Assembly (NCBI GenBank): GCA_030066685.1
Contig: JASJBF010000008.1
Span: 62,001 to 126,000 of the forward strand
From: Kiloniellales bacterium
GTDB lineage: Bacteria; Pseudomonadota; Alphaproteobacteria; Kiloniellales; JAKSBE01
Direction: 5' to 3'
Length of the DNA stretch: 64,000 bases
Part shown: positions 33,528 to 43,820 of the stretch, piece by piece
Layout: the number at the start of each line of letters is the position of its first letter
Position numbering within the stretch: position 1 is the stretch's first letter
The notes under the pieces: model-generated
Told to the model about the DNA's origin: nothing
Databases searched by the model: none
What the model saw: the letters and a program-made list of their open reading frames with translations, nothing else
Made by a program: the position numbers and the translations under genes

Positions 33528-34328
33528 TCAACCGTAGCGGCCTTCGATGTAGTCGGCCGTCTCCTGCTTGGCAGGCGTGACGAACATGTCCTCGGTCGGG
33601 GTGTGCTCCACGACCCGGCCCATGAGCATGAAGATGCACTCTTCGCTGGCGCGCCGGGCCTGGGCCATGTTGTGGGTCACGATCAGGATCGTGTACTGCC
33701 CGCGCAGCCCCCAGATCAGCTCCTCGACGGCTTCCGTTCCCTTGGGGTCGAGCGCCGAGCAAGGCTCGTCCATCAGCAGCACCTCCGGCTTCACGGGTAG
33801 CAAGCGCGCGATGCAGAGCTTCTGCTGCTCCTCCAGCGAAAGCTCCGTGGCCTTGCGGTCGAGCCGGTCCTTGACGTTGTCCCAGAGCAGGACCTGGCGC
33901 AGCGCCTGTTCCACGATCTCGTCCTTCTCGCTGCGGTGCATCCGCTTCTTGCCCTCGGCGTGCAGCTCGAAGCCGAAGAGCACGTTGTCGCGGACCGAGA
34001 TCGGCAAGGGATTGGGCCGTTGGAAGACCATGCCGACCTGCTTGCGGACCTGGGCGAGCTCGACGCCTTGATCGTAGATGTCGTGTTCGAGGACCGCGAT
34101 CGAGCCCTCGATGCGGACATAGCCCAGCCGCTCATTGATCCGGTTCACGCTGCGCAGGTAGGTGGTCTTGCCGCAGCCCGAAGGGCCGATCAGCGCGGTG
34201 ATGATCCCCTTCTTGATGTCGAGGTTAACGTCGTAGAGCGCCTGGAAGTCGCCGTACCAGAGGTTGAGGTCCCGGGTCCGGATGGCGAGGCCGTTCTGGC
34301 CGTTGGTCGTCTGCGCGGTCTTGTTCAT
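33528..34328 (-). CDS. pstB: Phosphate ABC transporter ATPase PstB, copy with degenerate signature
   Basis: The 266-residue ATPase (ATG at 34328; a TTG 9 bp earlier is less likely) has intact catalytic parts: Walker A GPSGCGKTTYLRS, Q-loop VFQRPNPLP, Walker B LLMDEPCSALDP and switch histidine in LIVTHNMAQA. The ABC signature is abnormal, LSLEEQQKLCIARLL, where LSGGQQQRLCIARAL is expected. The paired PstB encoded upstream has the opposite pattern. It is the last gene of the pst operon. In a heterodimer the good Walker site of this chain would meet the good signature of its partner. Confidence 0.93.
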   Translation of the reverse strand: MNKTAQTTNGQNGLAIRTRDLNLWYGDFQALYDVNLDIKKGIITALIGPSGCGKTTYLRSVNRINERLGYVRIEGSIAVLEHDIYDQGVELAQVRKQVGMVFQRPNPLPISVRDNVLFGFELHAEGKKRMHRSEKDEIVEQALRQVLLWDNVKDRLDRKATELSLEEQQKLCIARLLPVKPEVLLMDEPCSALDPKGTEAVEELIWGLRGQYTILIVTHNMAQARRASEECIFMLMGRVVEHTPTEDMFVTPAKQETADYIEGRYG

Positions 34329-34367
34329 GATCAGCAACCCATGAGCTGCGGTTCCGGTCCGGCCGAC

Positions 34368-35195
34368 CTAGCCGAAGCGGCCCGCGATGTAGTCCGCCGT
34401 CCGGCGGTCGGCGACATCGCCGGTGAAGAGGCTTTCGGTGTCGCCGATCTCGACGCAGCTGCCCATCAGGAAGAAGGCGGTGCGGTCGGCGAGCCGGCGT
34501 GCCTGCTGGGTCAGATTGGTCACCAGGATGATCGTCATCTCGTGGCGCAGCTCCTTCAGCACGTCCTCGATCCGCATCGTGGTGACGGGATCGACGGCGA
34601 TCGAGAACTCGTCGAGCATCAAGAGCTCGGGCTCCTGGGACAGCGCGCGGGCGATGGTCAGGCGCTGCTGCTGGCCGCCGGAGAGCAGGCTGCCCAAGGA
34701 ATGGAGCCGGTCCTTGACCTCGTCCCAAAGCGCGGCGCGGGTCAGGCAGCGCTCGACGATCTCGTCGAGGTCCGCCTTCCCGGAGACTCCGGCCAGGCGC
34801 GGCGCCAGGGCGACGTTGTCGTAGACGGTCATGGGCAGGCCCACGGGCAGCGGGAAGACCACGCCGATCCGGCTGCGCAGGGCATAGACGTTGCGCCAAG
34901 CGCGGACGTTGCGGCCGTTGAACAGGATGTCACCGGAAACCTGCATGCCGGGGTTGAATACGTCCATGCGGTTCAAGGACTTGAGAAAGGAGGTCTTGCC
35001 GCTGTTGGCCGGGCCGATGATGCCGAAGATCTCGTTCTCGCGGATCTCGAGGTTCACCCCGACCAGGGCCGGCTTGCCGTGATAGCTGATCGAGAGGTCC
35101 CGAACCTCTAGCTTGATCGGGGCGTCCTCGGGAAGGGCCGAGGCCGACGGGGCGCGGTCCCGCCCCGGCTCCAGAACGGTGATCGTCTCTACCAT
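34368..35195 (-). CDS. pstB: Phosphate ABC transporter ATPase PstB, copy with canonical signature but lost switch residues
   Basis: The 275-residue ATPase has Walker A GPANSGKTSFLKS and Walker B LLMLDEFSIAVDP, and a canonical signature LSGGQQQRLTIARAL. The Q-loop reads VFPLPVGLP (glutamine replaced by proline) and the switch region reads LVTNLTQQ (histidine replaced by asparagine), so its own ATP site should be poorly catalytic. It overlaps the pstA stop by 7 bp and is followed by the second pstB after 39 bp. A 25-residue N-terminal tail is longer than usual. Confidence 0.93.
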   Translation of the reverse strand: MVETITVLEPGRDRAPSASALPEDAPIKLEVRDLSISYHGKPALVGVNLEIRENEIFGIIGPANSGKTSFLKSLNRMDVFNPGMQVSGDILFNGRNVRAWRNVYALRSRIGVVFPLPVGLPMTVYDNVALAPRLAGVSGKADLDEIVERCLTRAALWDEVKDRLHSLGSLLSGGQQQRLTIARALSQEPELLMLDEFSIAVDPVTTMRIEDVLKELRHEMTIILVTNLTQQARRLADRTAFFLMGSCVEIGDTESLFTGDVADRRTADYIAGRFG

Positions 35196-36058
35196 TTCTT
35201 CTTCCCCCGGAGGTACATGCGGAAGCCGATCGACAGGGCGTTCATGGTCAGCACCATGGCGATCAGCACCAGGGCGACGCCGTAGGGCAGGTGGTCCGGG
35301 ACGTTAGGGACCTGGGTCGAGACCACGAAGAGGTGCAGGGAGAGCGCCATGGTCTGGTCGAAGACACTCTCCGGCAGGAAGGGCAGGAAGAAGGCGGCGC
35401 CGGTAAACATGATCGGCGCCGTCTCGCCACTCGTCCGAGAGACCTCGAGGATCACCCCAGTCAGGATCCCGCTGACGGCGTTCGGCAACACGACGCGGCG
35501 GATGGTCTGCCAGCGCGTCGCGCCCATGTTCCAGCAGGCCTCGCGGAAGGCCAGCGGGACCGCCTGCAGCGACTCCCGGGTCGCCACGATTATCAATGGC
35601 AGGGTCATGATCGCCAGGGTCAGGCTGGCGGCCAGGATGCTGGTGCCGAAGCCGAAGAAGATCACGAAGGCCCCAACCCCGAAAAGCGCGTGCACGATCG
35701 AGGGCACGCCGGCGAGGTTGATGATCGCCAGGTTGATCGTCCGGGTGAACCAGTTGTCCGGCGCGAACTCGCTGAGATAGAGCGCGGCCGCCACGCCCAG
35801 CGGCACCGAGACCAAGAGCGCGACCGCGACCAGCCAGACCGTCCCGACTAGGGCCGGGAAGATCCCGCCGGCGGTCATGCCGTCGATCGGATCGGCGAAA
35901 AGGAACTCCCAGGAGATGGCGGGCCCGCCCTTATAGATCAGGGTGCCCAGGATCATCATGACCGGGAAGATCAGCAGGATCGTCATCATCATGAAGAGGA
36001 GGCGAACCAGCCGCTCCGTGCGCCGGTTCTGGATGTTGATTTCTGTTGCTGCGAACAT
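35189..36058 (-). CDS. pstA: Phosphate ABC transporter permease PstA
   Basis: The 289-residue permease has six hydrophobic segments (from about residue 22, LLFMMMTILLIFPVMMILG) and the EAA loop FREACWNMGATRWQTIRRVV where the ATPase docks, followed by PNAVSGILTGVIL. VPLGVAAALYLSEFAP and FTGAAFFLPFLP are typical PstA stretches. It partners PstC in the high-affinity phosphate importer. It follows pstC by 31 bp and its stop overlaps the first pstB by 7 bp. Confidence 0.95.
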   Translation of the reverse strand: MFAATEINIQNRRTERLVRLLFMMMTILLIFPVMMILGTLIYKGGPAISWEFLFADPIDGMTAGGIFPALVGTVWLVAVALLVSVPLGVAAALYLSEFAPDNWFTRTINLAIINLAGVPSIVHALFGVGAFVIFFGFGTSILAASLTLAIMTLPLIIVATRESLQAVPLAFREACWNMGATRWQTIRRVVLPNAVSGILTGVILEVSRTSGETAPIMFTGAAFFLPFLPESVFDQTMALSLHLFVVSTQVPNVPDHLPYGVALVLIAMVLTMNALSIGFRMYLRGKKKW

Positions 36059-36089: not shown

Positions 36090-37079
36090 TCAGCCCTTCT
36101 TGATGCCGCGGACGATCAGATCCGCGGTCAGATTGATCAGGAAGGTGATCACGAAGAGGAAGATTCCGATCGTGAAGAGCGCCTGATAGTGGTCCGAGCC
36201 CACCGCGGTCTCGCCGAGCTCGGCGGCGATGGTGGCGGTCAGCGCGCGCACGGAATCGAAGATGCTGTCGGGCAGGTTGATCGCGTGACCGCTGGCCATC
36301 AGCACGGCCATGGTTTCGCCGAAGCCGCGTCCCACGCCCAGCAGGACGGCGCCCAGCAGGCCGTTCTTGGCGGCCGGCAGCACCACCTTGAAGATCACCT
36401 GCCAGCGACTCGCGCCCATGGCTTCGGCGGCCTCGCGGTAGCGGTCCGGCACCGCCTTGAGGGCGTCCTCCGAGATCGAGGTCATGATCGGTGCCGCCAT
36501 CAGCCCGAGGATCACGCCGGCGTTGAGCACGTTCAGGCCGACCGGCACGTCGAAGAGCTGGATGATCAGCGGGTTCATGATGGTCAGGCCGATGAAGCCC
36601 CAGACCACCGAGGGAATCGCCGCCAGCAGCTCGACCAGCACCTTCAGGACCTCCCGGGTCTTCCCGGTCGCGAACTCGGCGATGTAGATGGCGGCACCCA
36701 GCGAGAAGGGGATCGCCACGAGCATGGCGAGCCCGGTGACGCTCGCCGTCCCGGCGATCAGCGCAAGGATCCCATAGGTGGTCTTGTATTCCGAGGTCGG
36801 CTTCCACCTCGGCGAGCCGAAGAACTCGGCAAAGTCGAAGGGGCCGACAAGGAAGCCGAAGCCCTCCTTGGTGACGAAGACGAAGATGCCGATGATGAAG
36901 ATGATGGCCGAGATTCCACCGATGAACACCAGGATCTGAACGACCTTGTCGATGTACCAGTCGGCGTTACGGCGGTCGAAATCCAGGCCGTCGCGCCTGA
37001 CGGCTGACCGGGCAAGTACCGGTGAGCTCTCGCCAGTGACTTCCGCCGCACCGGCCACGTCTTTTGCCGTGTCGACCAT
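36090..37079 (-). CDS. pstC: Phosphate ABC transporter permease PstC
   Basis: The 329-residue permease has a hydrophilic N-terminal 55 residues, then six hydrophobic segments from about residue 55 (IFIIGIFVFVTKEGF). The EAA loop reads YREAAEAMGASRWQVIFKVV, and PFSLGAAIYIAEFA, AAIPSVVWGFIGL and GVGRGFGETMAVLM match PstC. It starts one base after the phoU-fusion stop and precedes pstA, so it belongs to the pho operon. Confidence 0.95.
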   Translation of the reverse strand: MVDTAKDVAGAAEVTGESSPVLARSAVRRDGLDFDRRNADWYIDKVVQILVFIGGISAIIFIIGIFVFVTKEGFGFLVGPFDFAEFFGSPRWKPTSEYKTTYGILALIAGTASVTGLAMLVAIPFSLGAAIYIAEFATGKTREVLKVLVELLAAIPSVVWGFIGLTIMNPLIIQLFDVPVGLNVLNAGVILGLMAAPIMTSISEDALKAVPDRYREAAEAMGASRWQVIFKVVLPAAKNGLLGAVLLGVGRGFGETMAVLMASGHAINLPDSIFDSVRALTATIAAELGETAVGSDHYQALFTIGIFLFVITFLINLTADLIVRGIKKG

Positions 37080-37080
37080 T

Positions 37081-38172
37081 TCAATCGGCTCCCTCGCCGC
37101 GCAGGGTCTCCATCAGGTCGCGGACCCTGACGGCGATCTCGCGGTACATTTCGACGTAGCGGTCATTGGCCTCGGCCTCGCCGAGTCCCTCCGGCGGTGT
37201 TCCGACGTCCCAATCCAGGAACACGGTGCGAAAGGGCTGCTGCGGCAGATAGGTGCCGACATCGCCTTGCAGGCTGACGACGACATCGTACTTCGCGACC
37301 TTGTGCGGATCGGGCTCGAGGGCGGTCGTCGTGATCGGTTCGGGCGCCAGGCCGTGCGTCTCGAGGAAGCCCAAGAGTCCGGGTTTCAGATCGACGCCGT
37401 TGCGCCGACCGGCACTCTCGTACTCGCCGCTGTTGGGGAAGGTCTTGCGGGCAACGGCCTCGGCGATCTGGCTTTGGCAGGTGTTGTCCTCGTCCAGGAA
37501 CAGGATTCTGTAGACCTTGGGCGGCTTGGTCTCGCCGGTCACCGTGAACAGGGTCTCTTCGCAGATGTTCTTGCACCTGTCGCAGACCCGCTTCAGCCGA
37601 CCGATCAGGATCAGGGCGTCGAAGAGATACCGGATCTCCTCGTGAGAGGTCTCGCTCTCCTGGACCAGTTCCTCGAAGACCATGTCGCCGTGGCCCTTGG
37701 CCTGGGCGGCGATCGCCTTGGTCTCGCGTGCGAGTTCGGCGTCCTTCTCGTTGAAGGATTTCATCGATTGAAGCAGGCAGGTCTGCGCCTGCCGGGCCAT
37801 GTCCTCCATCTCCTGCTTCAGGAGTCCCGTCGGCAGGTGCGGAAGTTGCAGGCCCTCGCGTGCGATGGTGGCCGCGTAGTCGCCGATGCGCTCCAGCTCG
37901 TTGACCAGCCTCAGGATCGAGGAAATCAGGCGCAGATGGCCGGCGCTGGGCAGATGGGTCGCCAGGAAGCCGTGGCAGAGACGGGTGATCTCCCGGGTCT
38001 GGCGATTGATGGGATGGTCCCGGAGGATCGTCTGGTTGGCCAGCTCCTTGTTGCCGGTCAGGGCCGCCTGGACTGCGTCCTCCTGGGCCTTCTGCACAGC
38101 CGCGCTCAGGGAAGCGACCCTTTCGCGGATCCGGGCCATGTCGTTTGACAATCGCTCTTCGTAGAGTGGCAT
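37081..38172 (-). CDS. phoU: PhoU fused to an LMW-phosphatase/ArsC-like domain lacking catalytic residues
   Basis: The 363-residue protein starts with a PhoU domain (about 1-210; two helical repeats including LRLISSILRLVNELERIGDYA and CDRCKNICEETLF) and continues with a domain that aligns to low-molecular-weight tyrosine phosphatase/arsenate reductase (about 222-363: YRILFLDEDNTCQSQIAEA, then YESAGRRNG and VFLDWDV). Active ArsC/LMW-PTP has CTGNSCRS in the P-loop; here the nucleophile Cys is Asp, the P-loop Arg is Gln, and only the second Cys remains. Phosphatase activity is therefore unlikely; phosphate or protein binding is possible. The neighbouring pst genes fit PhoU's role in Pho signalling. 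Confidence 0.9.
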   Translation of the reverse strand: MPLYEERLSNDMARIRERVASLSAAVQKAQEDAVQAALTGNKELANQTILRDHPINRQTREITRLCHGFLATHLPSAGHLRLISSILRLVNELERIGDYAATIAREGLQLPHLPTGLLKQEMEDMARQAQTCLLQSMKSFNEKDAELARETKAIAAQAKGHGDMVFEELVQESETSHEEIRYLFDALILIGRLKRVCDRCKNICEETLFTVTGETKPPKVYRILFLDEDNTCQSQIAEAVARKTFPNSGEYESAGRRNGVDLKPGLLGFLETHGLAPEPITTTALEPDPHKVAKYDVVVSLQGDVGTYLPQQPFRTVFLDWDVGTPPEGLGEAEANDRYVEMYREIAVRVRDLMETLRGEGAD

Positions 38173-38289: not shown

Positions 38290-38335
38290 AAAGAGAGAGA
38301 GAAACGCCGGGCCCGGCCCCCCACCAGGCCCGGCG
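38290..38335 (-). terminator. Terminator/attenuator between pstS and phoU
   Basis: On the minus strand CGCCGGGCC and GGCCCGGCG form a 9-bp stem (38305-38335, loop of 13), followed by a pyrimidine-rich tail (TTTCTCTCTCTCTTTCC). It lies 8 bp past the pstS stop, so it may partly stop transcription and raise PstS over the rest of the operon, as in other bacteria. Confidence 0.7.
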
Positions 38336-38342
38336 GGTCGGC

Positions 38343-39221
38343 TCAGTTGCAGGTCACCTCGCGGACCGGCGCATAGCCCTTGTCGCGGATGATGCACTGG
38401 CCCTCATCGCTGAGGATGAAGTCGAGGTACTTCTTGATCTCGCCGGTCGGCTCGCCGTTGGTGTACATCAGCAGCGGGCGGGCGATCGGATAGCTGCCGT
38501 CGGCGGCCGTCTTGACGCTCGGCATCACGCAGTCTTTCCCGTCCTGGGCGACGCAGGCCAGCTTGACGTGGTCGGTGGCGTAGGCGAGGCCGCTGTAGCC
38601 GATCGCGCAGGGCGTTTTCTCGACCAGATCAACGACGTCCTTCGAGCCGTGCATGTCGCGGGTCCCCATGCGGTAGTCCCGCGCCTTGCCGAGGACAGCC
38701 TTGCGGAAATAGGCATAAGTGCCGGAGTTGTTCTGGCGGCTGACCAGGACCATCTCCTGGTCCTTGCAACCCGGAACCTCGAGCCCGATGTCCGTCCACT
38801 TCTCGATGTCGCTTTCCTCACCGTAGATCTCTGCCAGTTGGGGGATCGAGAGGATCTTGGCCGGGTTGTCCTTGTGCAGGAAGACGGCGAGCGCGTCGAA
38901 GCCGACGGTGTGCTCGACCGGGTTCTGGCCCTTGGATTTGGCGAGCTCCAGCTCCTTACTCTTCATCGCCCGGCTGGCGTTGGCGATGTCCACGGTGCCG
39001 TTGATCATCGCGGCGATTCCGGTCCCCGAGCCGCCGCCGGTCACCGCGACGGCGACGTCGGAATTGACCTTCTGGTAGGCCTCCGCCCAGGCTTGGGCGA
39101 CATTGACCAGGGTGTCCGAGCCTTTGTTCTGGATCAGCTCGCGGGCCTCCACCGAGACGCTCAGTGAGACGGCGCCCGCGGCGATCATGGCGGCGACGGA
39201 AAATCTGGCGGTCTTGTGCAT
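38343..39221 (-). CDS. pstS: Phosphate-binding protein PstS
   Basis: The 292-residue exported protein has a signal peptide (FSVAAMIAAGAVSLSVSVEA, cleavage near residue 26) and the PstS start IQNKGSDTLVNVAQ. The phosphate-ligating regions appear as GSDTL, VTGGGSGTGIAAMINGTVD, and SRQNNSGTYAYF, the last with the SGT loop. Two cysteine pairs at the C-terminal half (CKDQE, CAIGYSG, CVAQDGKDC, CIIRDKG..C) may form disulfides. GAGGGAGG precedes the ATG. It is the first gene after the PHO-box array and a terminator follows it. Confidence 0.95.
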   Translation of the reverse strand: MHKTARFSVAAMIAAGAVSLSVSVEARELIQNKGSDTLVNVAQAWAEAYQKVNSDVAVAVTGGGSGTGIAAMINGTVDIANASRAMKSKELELAKSKGQNPVEHTVGFDALAVFLHKDNPAKILSIPQLAEIYGEESDIEKWTDIGLEVPGCKDQEMVLVSRQNNSGTYAYFRKAVLGKARDYRMGTRDMHGSKDVVDLVEKTPCAIGYSGLAYATDHVKLACVAQDGKDCVMPSVKTAADGSYPIARPLLMYTNGEPTGEIKKYLDFILSDEGQCIIRDKGYAPVREVTCN

Positions 39222-39402: not shown

Positions 39403-40728
39403 CTAGCCGGCCTTGGAGAGTTCTGCCTCGGGTTCCGTGCGGACTCGCGATCCCGGGAAGTGGCAACTGAATGTCGTGCCTTTGCCCACGTCGCTGGCGA
39501 TCCTGAGCTCCGCCGAATAGCGGTCCAGCACCTGCTTGACGATCGCCAGACCGAGGCCGCTTCCGCCGGAGCGGCGCGATCGCCCGGCGTCGACCCTGTA
39601 GAAGCGCTCTGTGAGCCGCGGCAGGTGGTAGGCGGCGATGCCTTGCCCGTTGTCCCGGACCGAGAGGCTGGCGCCTTCGGTGTTTCTCTGCCAGTCGATG
39701 TCGACCCGGGTGCCGGCCGGCGTGTGCCGCACGGCGTTGAAAATCAGGTTCGAGAAGGCGCTGCGCAGCTCGCCTTCCTCGCCGAGGAGCTGGACGGTCG
39801 GGTCCATCTCGAGCCGGAGGCTGTGCCGCCTGTCGCCGCTGAGCATCCGGGCCTCGGCCAGGATCTCGGCCAGGATCTCGGCGACCGGCACCGCGGCTTC
39901 GGCCAGGGGCCGATCCGCCATCTCCAGGCGCGACAGTGTGAGAAGATCGTCGACCAGCGCCTGCATGCGTTCGGCTTGCTGGTCCATCTGCGCCACCGGA
40001 ATGCGCCACTGCGGCTGTTCCACCGCCAACTCCTGCAGCGCCTCGAGGTAGCCGCGGAACACCGTGATCGGTGTTCGCAGCTCGTGGGACACGCTGGCCA
40101 GGAAGTCCCGGCGCGCCTGCTCCAGTCGGAACACCGGGGTGATATCCCGCGCCACCAGCAGGCGTTCGTGCTGGTTGCCGAAGGCCGCGGTGATCTGGAG
40201 GCTCAGCATCCAGGCGCCATTGGCCGGGGAGGGCACCTCCAGGGGCCGCGACGACCGGCCCGCAGCCAGGTCGTCCTCCAGGATCGGGTGAACCACCACC
40301 CCGGTTATGTCCTTGCCCAAATCGGCGGGCCAGCGAAGCCCCAGGAGCTTTCGGGCGGCGGGATTGAACCAAGAAATTGCACCGGTCTCGGAGAGGACGA
40401 CGATGGCATCCGGCAGAGTCCCGGCGGCCTCCCGGTAGTCGGAGAGAAAGCCGATCAGGCGCCGCCCGCGCCGCCGCTTGCGCAGCCGCTCGCGTTGCAG
40501 GCCATCGAAGACCGCCTCCCAGACGCCCAGGGAGACCGGCAGGCGAAACCCTCGGCGCCGTCTGATCCAGGATTGCAGGAGCAGGAAGTTCGCCAGGTGC
40601 CAGCCGAGGTAGCCGATCAGGCCCAACCCCAGCAGGAGCCGGGTGCCTCCGAAAAGCAACCCCAGGAGGACCAGCGCCAGGCCGACGGCGGCGACGAAAG
40701 CGAGCTCGTTTCGCCAGGCCCGGATCAA
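39403..40728 (-). CDS. phoR: Phosphate regulon sensor kinase PhoR
   Basis: I take the start at a TTG (40728) that overlaps the phoB stop as TTGA, giving 441 residues; an ATG-based start would fall inside phoB in another frame. Two membrane helices (about 8-28 and 32-50) are followed by a PAS-like region ([26 protein letters not shown]), the dimerisation/phosphorylation site [14 protein letters not shown], the N-box [14 protein letters not shown], the D-box DNGQGI and the G-box [12 protein letters not shown]. It is the sensor partner of PhoB and reads phosphate supply through the Pst complex and PhoU. The pstS gene follows it. Confidence 0.92.
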
Positions 40729-41420
40729 GATTGGCCCCGGGTCGAAAACCGGTAGCCGCTGCCGTGCACTGTCTGGATCAGCCGGTTGTGTCCGCTGGCC
40801 TCGAGCGTCTTCCTCAGGTTGCTGACGTGCATGTCCACCGTGCGCGGGCTGACGTGGATGTTCCGACCCCAGACCAGGTCGAGCAGCTGATCGCGGCTGT
40901 AGACCCGCTCCGGGTGCGTCATGAGGACGTGGAGCAGGCGGAACTCGGTCGGTGCGAGGTCGAGGTCCCGCTCGCCGACCGTGACCCGGTGGCTGACGGG
41001 ATCGAGCAGCAGGCCGTTCACCTTCACCGTGTCGTCGGTCGCTTCGGGCTTCATGCGGCGCAGCACGGCCTCGATCCGCGCCACCAGTTCCTTCGGGGCG
41101 AAGGGCTTGGTGACGTAGTCGTCGGCCCCGTCCCGCAGGCCCCGGACCTTGTCCTCTTCCTCGCCGCGCGCGGTGAGCATGATGACCGGGATCGATCTTG
41201 TCGCGGGATCGCGGCGCAGCAGCTTGACGAAGTCGATTCCCGATCGCCCCGGCAGCATCCAATCGAGCAGAATCAGGTCGGGGGTGTCCCGAAGGATCTC
41301 CGCCTCGGCCTGTGCGGCATCGCCCGCCTCCGCGTAGGAGAAGCCCGCCCGCGACAGGGCGAAACCGATCATCTCACGGATCGTCGGCTCGTCGTCCACC
41401 ACGAGGATCTTGCCGGCCAT
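40725..41420 (-). CDS. phoB: Phosphate regulon response regulator PhoB
   Basis: The 231-residue regulator has a receiver domain (about 1-125: acidic VVDDEPT, phosphoacceptor Asp in [13 protein letters not shown], Thr in [14 protein letters not shown], Lys in [11 protein letters not shown]) and a winged-helix OmpR-type DNA-binding domain (about 130-230, [51 protein letters not shown]). It is the usual length for PhoB and is followed by phoR with a 4-bp overlap. The predicted target is the PHO-box-like array in front of pstS. Confidence 0.95.
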
Positions 41421-41837: not shown

Positions 41838-42518
41838 ATGGCCAGAACCAGTCCCTTCGCAAGCCTGTTCGGCCGTTCGCCGATCAAGCCGATGCAAGAG
41901 CACATCAAGGTCGTAACCCGCTGCGCCGGCGAGGTGCCGGGCTTGTTCGAAGCGCTCTGCGCTGGGGATCAGGGCAAGGTGGCCGAGTTCAAGGATCGGA
42001 TCTTCGCCCTCGAACAAGAGGCCGACGACATCAAGAACGAGCTCCGCGCCCATCTGCCGAAGAGCCTTCTGATGCCGGTCGACCGGCGCGATCTACTCGA
42101 AGTGCTCGACATGCAGGACTCCATCGCCGACACGGCGCAGGACATCGCAGGGCTGCTCGTCGAGCGCCCGATGGAGGTCCCGGACAGCCTCAAGGAGCCG
42201 CTGGTTGCCCTGGCGCGCCGTTGCGTTCAGGCCTGCGACAAGGCGGCCGAGGTGATCGGAGAGCTCGATGAACTCGTCGAGACCGGGTTCCGCGGACGCG
42301 AGTCGGAGCGAGTCTCCGAGATGGTCGACGAGCTGAACAAGATCGAGGACGACACCGACCAGATGGGCATGGACCTGACGCATCGCCTCTTCGCGCAGGA
42401 AGACGAGATGAAGCCCGTCTCGGTGATGTTCTGGTACCAGCTGATCCAGTGGATCGGCGACTTGGCGGACTACGCAGAAAAGGTTGGCAATCGGCTGCGC
42501 CTCTTGCTCGCCAGCTGA
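41838..42518 (+). CDS. DUF47/TIGR00153 family PhoU-like protein
   Basis: The 226-residue protein is all-helical with the PhoU-like pattern (KVVTRCAGEVPGLFEAL, LEQEADDIKNELRAHLPKS, VDRRDLLEVLDMQDSIADT). Members are found next to low-affinity phosphate transporters and are thought to modulate them. The start has GGAGGATAG upstream. The pit gene follows after 36 bp with a strong ribosome site. Confidence 0.93.
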   Translation: MARTSPFASLFGRSPIKPMQEHIKVVTRCAGEVPGLFEALCAGDQGKVAEFKDRIFALEQEADDIKNELRAHLPKSLLMPVDRRDLLEVLDMQDSIADTAQDIAGLLVERPMEVPDSLKEPLVALARRCVQACDKAAEVIGELDELVETGFRGRESERVSEMVDELNKIEDDTDQMGMDLTHRLFAQEDEMKPVSVMFWYQLIQWIGDLADYAEKVGNRLRLLLAS

Positions 42519-42554
42519 GGGAAGTCCGAACGACAGATAGGGGGAGGAGCGGCC

Positions 42555-43820
42555 ATGGAAGTCATCAATCAGTACGGTATGATCTTGATCACCCTCGGCG
42601 TGGTCTTCGGTCTGTACATGACCTGGGGCATCGGCGCCAATGACGTGGCGAACGTCATGGGTACCTCAGTGGGATCCGGTGCCATCACCGTGACCACGGC
42701 GATCATCATTGCCGCCATCTTCGAGTTCGGCGGCGCCGCGCTGGCCGGGGGGCACGTGACTGCGACGATCCGCAAGGGCATCATCGATCCCAGTCCCATC
42801 GTCAACACGCCGGAGGTTCTGATCTTCGGAATGCTGGCGGCGCTCTTGGCCGCCGCAGTGTGGCTGATGATCGCCTCCTCGCGCGGTTGGCCGGTATCGA
42901 CCACCCATTCGATCGTCGGCGCCGTGGTCGGCTTTGCGATCGCCGGCATTGGACTGGACGCCGTCAAATGGGACAAGATCGGGCAAATCGTGGCCAGTTG
43001 GGTGGTGTCGCCGGTGCTCGGCGGCACGATCGCCTTCATCCTGATGATCAGCATCCGCCGCTTGATCCTGAACACCGACAATCCCTTCCAGAGCGCCAAG
43101 CGTTGGGGCCCGGTCTATGTCTTCCTAGTCGGCTTCGTCATCGCCCTGGTGACGCTGTTCAAGGGACTGAAGCACCTCAAGCTGGATCTCACCATCCCCA
43201 TGAGCTTCCTGGCAGCGGCCGTCATCGGGCTGATCATCGCGGCCATAGGCTGGGCCCTGATCAGTCGTGTCAAGGTCGACGAGGCCGCCGATCAGGACTA
43301 CCACTTCGCCAGCGTCGAAAAGGTCTTTGTGCCGATGATGCTGTTCACCGCCTGCGGCATGGCCTTTGCCCACGGATCGAATGATGTCGCCAACGGTGTC
43401 GGCCCCCTGGCCGCCGTCTACGGCCTGGTCCAATCAGGCGGGGAGGTGGCCCAGAAGTCCGAGCTGCCGATCTGGATCCTGCTGCTCGGCGGGTTCGGCA
43501 TCGTCGTCGGGCTGGCGACCTATGGCTACAAGGTGATGCGGACGATCGGCACCAAGATCACCGAGTTGACGCCGACGCGCGGCTTCAGTGCGACCATGGC
43601 GGCGGCCGCGACGGTCGTCCTGGCTTCGCGGACCGGCATGCCGGTCTCCACCACGCACATTGCCGTCGGTGCGGTGATGGGTGTCGGTTTGGCGCGCGGC
43701 ATCGGGGCGATCGACCTGCGGGTCATCGGTGGGATCGTGGTGTCCTGGATCGTCACCCTGCCGATCGGCGGCGTGCTGGCGGCGCTCTTCTACTTCACAC
43801 TGAAGGGCATATTCACCTAG
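42555..43820 (+). CDS. pit: Low-affinity inorganic phosphate transporter, PiT family
   Basis: The 421-residue protein is a PiT-type permease of normal length. The two inverted repeats are visible as GANDVANVMGTSVGSGAIT near residue 30 and HGSNDVANGVGPLAAVYGL near 275, plus STTHSIVGAVVGFAIAG and STTHIAVGAVMGVGLARG. Ten to twelve hydrophobic segments fit the family. GGGGGAGGAG precedes the ATG. It partners the DUF47 protein and supplies phosphate by proton or cation symport when the supply is ample. Confidence 0.94.
   Translation: MEVINQYGMILITLGVVFGLYMTWGIGANDVANVMGTSVGSGAITVTTAIIIAAIFEFGGAALAGGHVTATIRKGIIDPSPIVNTPEVLIFGMLAALLAAAVWLMIASSRGWPVSTTHSIVGAVVGFAIAGIGLDAVKWDKIGQIVASWVVSPVLGGTIAFILMISIRRLILNTDNPFQSAKRWGPVYVFLVGFVIALVTLFKGLKHLKLDLTIPMSFLAAAVIGLIIAAIGWALISRVKVDEAADQDYHFASVEKVFVPMMLFTACGMAFAHGSNDVANGVGPLAAVYGLVQSGGEVAQKSELPIWILLLGGFGIVVGLATYGYKVMRTIGTKITELTPTRGFSATMAAAATVVLASRTGMPVSTTHIAVGAVMGVGLARGIGAIDLRVIGGIVVSWIVTLPIGGVLAALFYFTLKGIFT

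Follow-up and report, generated by a model that had tools for sequence, protein, structure and literature searches.

A PhoU protein fused to a phosphatase-like domain lacking catalytic residues, encoded in a variant Pst operon with two dissimilar PstB ATPases

A 64,000-nucleotide stretch of DNA from a Kiloniellales bacterium (contig JASJBF010000008.1, positions 62,001 to 126,000; hereafter, the window) contains a genuine fusion of PhoU, the negative regulator of the Pho regulon, to a phosphatase-like domain without catalytic residues. The gene, here named phoU* (37081..38172, minus strand), is an open reading frame of 363 amino acids running from ATG to stop, and it belongs to a cassette with the conserved order pstS-phoU*-pstC-pstA-pstB1-pstB2, whose two ATPase genes encode PstB proteins with complementary motif losses. 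A preliminary description, made from the letters of the window, had recognized the fusion, but missed that it forms part of a larger variant of the Pst system, with PstB1 and PstB2 as an asymmetric pair. PhoU* most likely gates this pair, with the pseudo-phosphatase domain serving as a docking or gating module. The observations underlying this reading are the fusion and its fold, the loss of catalytic residues, the cassette, the motif changes in the ATPases and the co-occurrence of these elements.

PhoU* comprises a PhoU domain (amino acids 1–214), which matches Pfam PhoU with 90 bits, and a domain resembling ArsC and low-molecular-weight protein tyrosine phosphatase (LMW-PTP) at amino acids 222–358, with a C-terminal tail of the form LRGExA. 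Against TIGR02135, the window protein scores 129.3 bits (130.9 bits as the G000 locus) at a cut-off of 130.25, and its relatives lie marginally above or below this value. When used as a single sequence, the region from approximately 222 to 350 gave weak matches to LMWPc/ArsC (22.2 bits in Pfam, cut-off 23.2), to TIGR02689 (23.2 bits) and to ArsC entries in the PDB (E ~1e-4). An AlphaFold2 model computed from a 75-row family alignment was confident (pLDDT 93.2, pTM 0.84), and a Foldseek search with its two halves retrieved PhoU 4q25 for the N-terminal half (TMt 0.95, rmsd 1.2), which has the three-helix-bundle repeat fold, and the ArsC/LMW-PTP fold for the C-terminal half (1jf8, TMt 0.86; 1jl3, TMt 0.81). 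The fold of the C-terminal domain is settled by this model and these matches, and the fusion proposed in the preliminary description is borne out by them together with the Pfam and TIGRFAM matches.

The P-loop of this domain is degenerate. The codons at 37456..37506 (minus strand) specify amino acids 223–239, ILFLDEDNTCQSQIAEA, and in the P-loop sequence of the window protein, LFLDEDNTCQSQIAEA, Asp227 aligns with the nucleophilic Cys and Gln233 with the Arg, so that the CX5R motif of an LMW-PTP/ArsC enzyme is absent. Residues were counted in 96 PhoU* sequences, which are partly non-independent, and in 14 standalone homologues, all scored with one profile. At the nucleophile position, Asp occurs in 93 PhoU* sequences, Gly in three and Cys in none, compared with Cys in all 14 standalone homologues; the Arg, present in 14/14 standalone homologues, is kept in six PhoU* sequences and lost in 90, where it is replaced by various residues (Leu, Gln, Ala, Pro, Trp). 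Both substitutions had been noted in the preliminary description, and of the two, the Asp proved to be conserved and the Gln not to be fixed. Further losses were found in what appears to be a catalytically dead domain: the general-acid Asp of the DP motif (T325/P326 in the window protein; variable and mostly lost in the family; Asp in 13/14 standalone homologues) and the second redox Cys of ArsC (Gln at position 302 in the window protein; absent from the residues listed for PhoU*; Cys in 12/14 standalone homologues). In the three planctomycete sequences with Gly (L103, L104 and L106), the motif reads FVGDKNNGVSQ, with an Asp one residue downstream.

The scaffold of the domain is retained. F225, A237 and W321 are invariant in 96/96 sequences, the length of the P-loop is unchanged, and the loop-shaping residues Asn230 (86/96) and Ser234 (69/96) are widely kept. 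SAG, one of two fold landmarks named in the preliminary description, is also preserved; the other, the second P-loop Cys (C232), is no landmark, being present in 28/96 sequences at a position where Gly is commoner. PhoU*-specific conserved stretches are PF(H/R)T and the LRGExA tail, and dN/dS for the C-terminal domain is 0.19–0.26. To judge from these sequences, the domain is a conserved pseudo-enzyme under purifying selection. The retained loop bears on the possibility that it acts as a phosphate or arsenate sensor, in which the P-loop amides would hold the oxyanion, Asp227 would take the proton of HPO4 and the ligand would switch PhoU*. The loop length, Asn230, Ser234 and the location of phoU* in a Pst operon fit such a role, and PstS uses an Asp in phosphate binding, a loose parallel for Asp227. 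In addition, it has been argued for mycobacteria that PhoU senses phosphate inside the cell without Pst (PMC12301784). However, the phosphate-binding Arg is gone in 90/96 sequences with arbitrary replacements, the general acid is lost, three members have Gly in place of the nucleophile, and Asp places a negative charge at the anion site, which argues against ordinary oxyanion binding; for arsenate, no ars genes were recognized in the stretch read around PhoU*. A sensor, as suggested in the preliminary description, is possible but less likely than a docking or gating role, being disfavoured by the chemistry of the P-loop, and we consider it unlikely. A second proposal is that Asp227 and Asp322, two acidic residues immediately following strands 1 and 4, form a pocket that binds a metal and make the domain a metal-dependent regulator or stabilizer. 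An interaction between PhoU and metal appears in the literature, as a title cited within PMC4423584, but position 322 is variable (Asp in 63/96, otherwise N, P, T, S or K) and the sequence has no metal-specific features, which makes metal binding improbable.

Among 60 relatives searched, four in addition to the genome of the window carry PhoU* (67–91% identity). A scan of 84,980 genomes using two patterns yielded 80 PhoU* loci, nearly all in metagenome-assembled genomes; one of the patterns matches the PhoU tail (KNICEET), and most hits were therefore chosen independently of their P-loop. According to record titles and taxonomy, the fusion first noticed in the window recurs in about 10 phyla, namely Pseudomonadota (including Ca. 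Accumulibacter and Magnetococcales), Planctomycetota, Acidobacteriota, Gemmatimonadota, Nitrospirota, Myxococcota, Rhodothermota, Chloroflexota, Verrucomicrobiota and KSB1. Four Pseudomonadota genomes (G092, G123, G143 and G167) have two copies each. No fusion of PhoU to an active CX5R domain was found when 398 genomes of Pseudomonadota and 99 of Planctomycetota were searched with a profile including the PhoU tail, in which the fusions had scores of 118 bits or more and all other matches 73 bits or less; 33 lower-scoring loci were fetched and none had an in-frame PhoU domain, the unfetched lower hits being unchecked for an upstream PhoU. All 11 PhoU* sequences from the Planctomycetota sample carry Asp, and the standalone homologues listed in that sample are Cys-Arg. 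An origin of the fusion by chance or artefact was rejected in view of its presence in about 10 phyla and a dN/dS below 1. That the C-terminal domain is a functionless evolutionary leftover would accord with the loss of catalytic residues, yet its conservation across these phyla, the three invariant residues, the conserved tail and a dN/dS well below 1 make this exceedingly improbable.

With canonical PhoU as the root of a PhoU tree, the PhoU* sequences form a single, separate clade (SH-aLRT 100), in which L108–L110 (Verrucomicrobiota and KSB1; support for the trio 81) are sister to the remaining members (support 100). In these first-branching sequences the DP general acid is retained, accompanied in L108 and L109 by the Arg, yet all three already have Asp at the nucleophile position, suggesting that the change from Cys to Asp was probably the earliest and that the remaining catalytic residues drifted afterwards. 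This order is among the points consistent with Asp227 being a phosphoacceptor or an Asp nucleophile, which would be phosphorylated by PhoR or a small phospho-donor in the manner of a receiver or HAD aspartate, the modification serving as a signal; the others are the presence of Asp in 93/96 sequences and the potential of Asp322 to complete an acidic pocket in 63/96. However, the Arg and the general acid are absent in most members, Asp322 is variable, phoR and phoB adjoin the cassette in some loci only, and we know of no protein of the LMW-PTP fold with an Asp nucleophile. A phosphoacceptor role is accordingly regarded as very improbable. Apart from its additional domain and its separate clade, PhoU* resembles ordinary PhoU (TIGR02135/PF01895) in its N-terminal domain, fold and operon context; the usual place of its gene is between pstS and pstC and not the 3′ end of the operon, where ordinary phoU is located.

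The genes pstC, pstA, pstB1 and pstB2 accompany phoU* in 54 of the 55 loci for which 4.2 kb or more of downstream sequence is available (two neighbours are swapped in three loci), and pstS is usually directly upstream of phoU*. The presence of PstS, PstC, PstA and ATPase genes in one operon identifies a Pst importer. In the window, the products of pstB1 (34368..35195, minus strand) and pstB2 (33528..34337, minus strand) score 282 and 325.8 bits against TIGR00972, both below its cut-off of 343.2. PstB1 has an intact LSGGQ signature and the D-loop SIAVDP, but the Q-loop Gln is replaced by Pro (VVFPLPVG) and the H-loop His by Asn (VTNLTQQAR); PstB2 has intact Walker A/B motifs, Q-loop and H-loop, but LSLEEQ in place of LSGGQ. 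Across 69 PstB1 sequences, LSGGQ and the His-to-Asn change are found in 69/69 and the Gln-to-Pro change in 68, with one gap, and across 65 PstB2 sequences the Q- and H-loops are intact and the signature is degenerate in 65/65 (LSLEEQ in 56, variants in the rest), the complementary pattern of losses being constant from phylum to phylum. Both proteins retain the Walker A Lys and Walker B Glu, and neither has the full set of Walker A/B, Q-loop, LSGGQ and H-loop motifs; each forms a separate clade (SH-aLRT 100 each). In canonical PstB, by comparison, all these motifs are intact at each of 27 loci sampled in relatives (27/27), a set to which the second Pst operon in the genome of the window (G000:C40) also belongs. 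Because each ATP site of paired ABC subunits is completed by the signature of the partner (PMC7756269), PstB1 and PstB2, provided that they pair, would form a consensus site and a degenerate one. In a Magnetococcales locus (L071:3000-5873), PstB1 is present with no PstB2 within the next 2.1 kb.

Without pairing, PstB1 and PstB2 would serve two homodimeric importers or alternate by condition, as the tandem PstB proteins of Enterococcus might. In E. faecalis, the roles of the two are non-overlapping, and excess PstB2 replaces PstB1 (PMC12096839). However, both E. faecalis proteins have intact motifs, unlike PstB1 and PstB2 here; a PstB2 homodimer would contain two degenerate signatures, a PstB1 homodimer would lack the Q- and H-loop residues, and a single permease pair is encoded. 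An unpaired arrangement is thus judged to have little probability.

The occurrence of the fusion follows that of PstB1. PhoU* was found, with a wide score gap, in 16 of the 398 Pseudomonadota genomes, and a DNA motif for the PstB1 D-loop in 17, comprising the same 16 and G139; for the 99 Planctomycetota genomes, the corresponding numbers are 11 and 12, the latter comprising the same 11 and G526. Fisher tests gave 1e-27 and 1e-13, respectively, the related genomes not being independent. Among 21 cassette genomes, canonical PstB and canonical PhoU occur only in the genome of the window and its four fusion-bearing relatives. In the other 16, PstB1 and PstB2 are the only PstB proteins, so that the pair must serve, and in 15 of these 16, PhoU* is the only full-length PhoU, as it is in 15 of the 20 PhoU*-bearing Pseudomonadota genomes tested. 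Of 14 genomes reached via other loci, five have an above-cut-off canonical PstB and eight or nine have another PhoU beside PhoU*. PhoU* can therefore be, but need not be, the sole PhoU. No canonical PstB was found in the one Ca. Accumulibacter genome searched.

These features can be accommodated if a variant Pst importer has PhoU* as its own dedicated PhoU and two ATPases that are specialized as an asymmetric pair and gated through the docking C-terminal domain, an explanation to which we assign about an even chance. PstB1 and PstB2 would pair under PstC and PstA; the ATP bound by PstB2 and closed by LSGGQ of PstB1 would form the hydrolytic site, and the ATP bound by PstB1 opposite LSLEEQ of PstB2 a degenerate site with slow turnover. 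E. coli PhoU contacts PstB and PhoR (PMC4423584), and PhoU* would bind the PstB1/PstB2 pair as ordinary PhoU does PstB, restraining transport and phosphate signalling at high phosphate. Its C-terminal domain would act non-enzymatically as the docking or gating module: Asp227 may lock the loop by taking the position of phosphate in the former oxyanion hole, and the conserved surface and LRGExA tail may touch the asymmetric ATPase. Several points weigh against this explanation. Both the PstB1–PstB2 heterodimer and the contact between PhoU* and PstB are inferred. An H-loop Asn is tolerated in MRP1 (PMC7756269), and as the Walker A Lys and Walker B Glu of PstB1 are intact, the putatively degenerate site may still hydrolyse ATP. 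G139, in which no full-length PhoU was detected by TIGR02135, has two asymmetric cassettes (L162 and L163) without a PhoU between pstS and pstC, and in the planctomycete G526 (L237:139-5568) an ordinary PhoU of 243 residues comes after pstS-pstC-pstA-pstB1-pstB2, possibly a pre-fusion state; the fused domain is therefore not essential to the asymmetric pair. An ordinary PhoU also exists alongside PhoU* in L053, where it follows pstB2 in the same operon, and at G458:C77:21534-22157. A more far-reaching proposal, that the cassette is a second, phylum-spanning importer design in which an asymmetric PstB1/PstB2 ATPase is controlled by PhoU* and the pseudo-phosphatase senses the condition of the degenerate ATP site, linking transport to signalling in a way that canonical Pst lacks, is offered tentatively and is somewhat doubtful.

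The elements of the cassette have counterparts in known systems. The C-terminal domain shares with thioredoxin/glutaredoxin-type ArsC and LMW-PTP (PF01451) the fold (TMt 0.8–0.86), the P-loop length and the scaffold N, A, SAG and W, but differs in its Cys-to-Asp change, the loss of the Arg (90/96), the general acid and the redox Cys, and its fusion to PhoU. PstS, PstC and PstA exceed the family cut-offs as in canonical PstSCAB, and PstB1 and PstB2 are nearest to PstB; the presence of two dissimilar, below-cut-off PstB proteins with complementary losses is the difference. Tandem PstB is known in Firmicutes, and according to a 2025 study of E. faecalis, tandem pstB paralogues had not been the subject of any published study before (PMC12096839); there, too, the pstB genes are adjacent in one pst operon, but both have intact motifs and no fused PhoU is described. 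A composite of consensus and degenerate ATP sites, predicted here from motifs, is found in the heterodimeric ABC exporters TAP, BmrCD and Pdr5, and the degenerate signature of Pdr5, LNVEQ, is strikingly similar to LSLEEQ (PMC7756269); in contrast to these exporters, the present system is an importer with free-standing ATPases that both keep the Walker A Lys and Walker B Glu. In the open-access literature, no report of a PhoU with a phosphatase or pseudophosphatase domain was found, and nothing relevant on a degenerate PstB pair, although a prior report of either elsewhere is possible. PhoU* with PstB1/PstB2 is thus apparently a variant of the Pst–PhoU system that is undescribed so far. How phosphate is sensed and signalled by Pst and PhoU is a long-standing question, and the division of two PstB roles between separate genes, together with a pseudo-enzyme on PhoU, makes each ATP site and the PhoU contact separately mutable. 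If the pair is asymmetric as predicted, it would represent a degenerate-site ABC importer with free-standing ATPases. The cassette occurs in Ca. Accumulibacter, a key polyphosphate accumulator in wastewater treatment, and in 11 of the 99 sampled Planctomycetota genomes.

In the window, all further genes of the operon and its flank lie on the minus strand. The pstS gene (38343..39221; TIGR02136, 242.6 bits) is preceded by phoB (40725..41420; TIGR02154, 332.7 bits) and phoR (39403..40716, start approximate; TIGR02966, 400 bits), and the stop of phoU* lies 1 nt ahead of pstC (36090..37079; TIGR02138, 279 bits), followed by pstA (35189..36058; TIGR00974, 261 bits); all five products score above their cut-offs. 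No sigma-70 promoter was identified by scanning, two PHO box matches with 3 mismatches were no more than expected by chance, and an Rfam search gave no match. A strong G+C-rich, terminator-like hairpin with a T-rich tail was located between pstS and phoU* (38305..38335, minus strand) by a consensus scan that found 6 sites against 4.5 expected, a count near chance that makes the evidence weak; it is possibly an attenuator lowering expression downstream of pstS. A divergent PhoU-like protein (TIGR00153) and a Pit transporter adjoin phoB on the plus strand (41838-43820), and are also found near the cassette in L031, L033 and L058.
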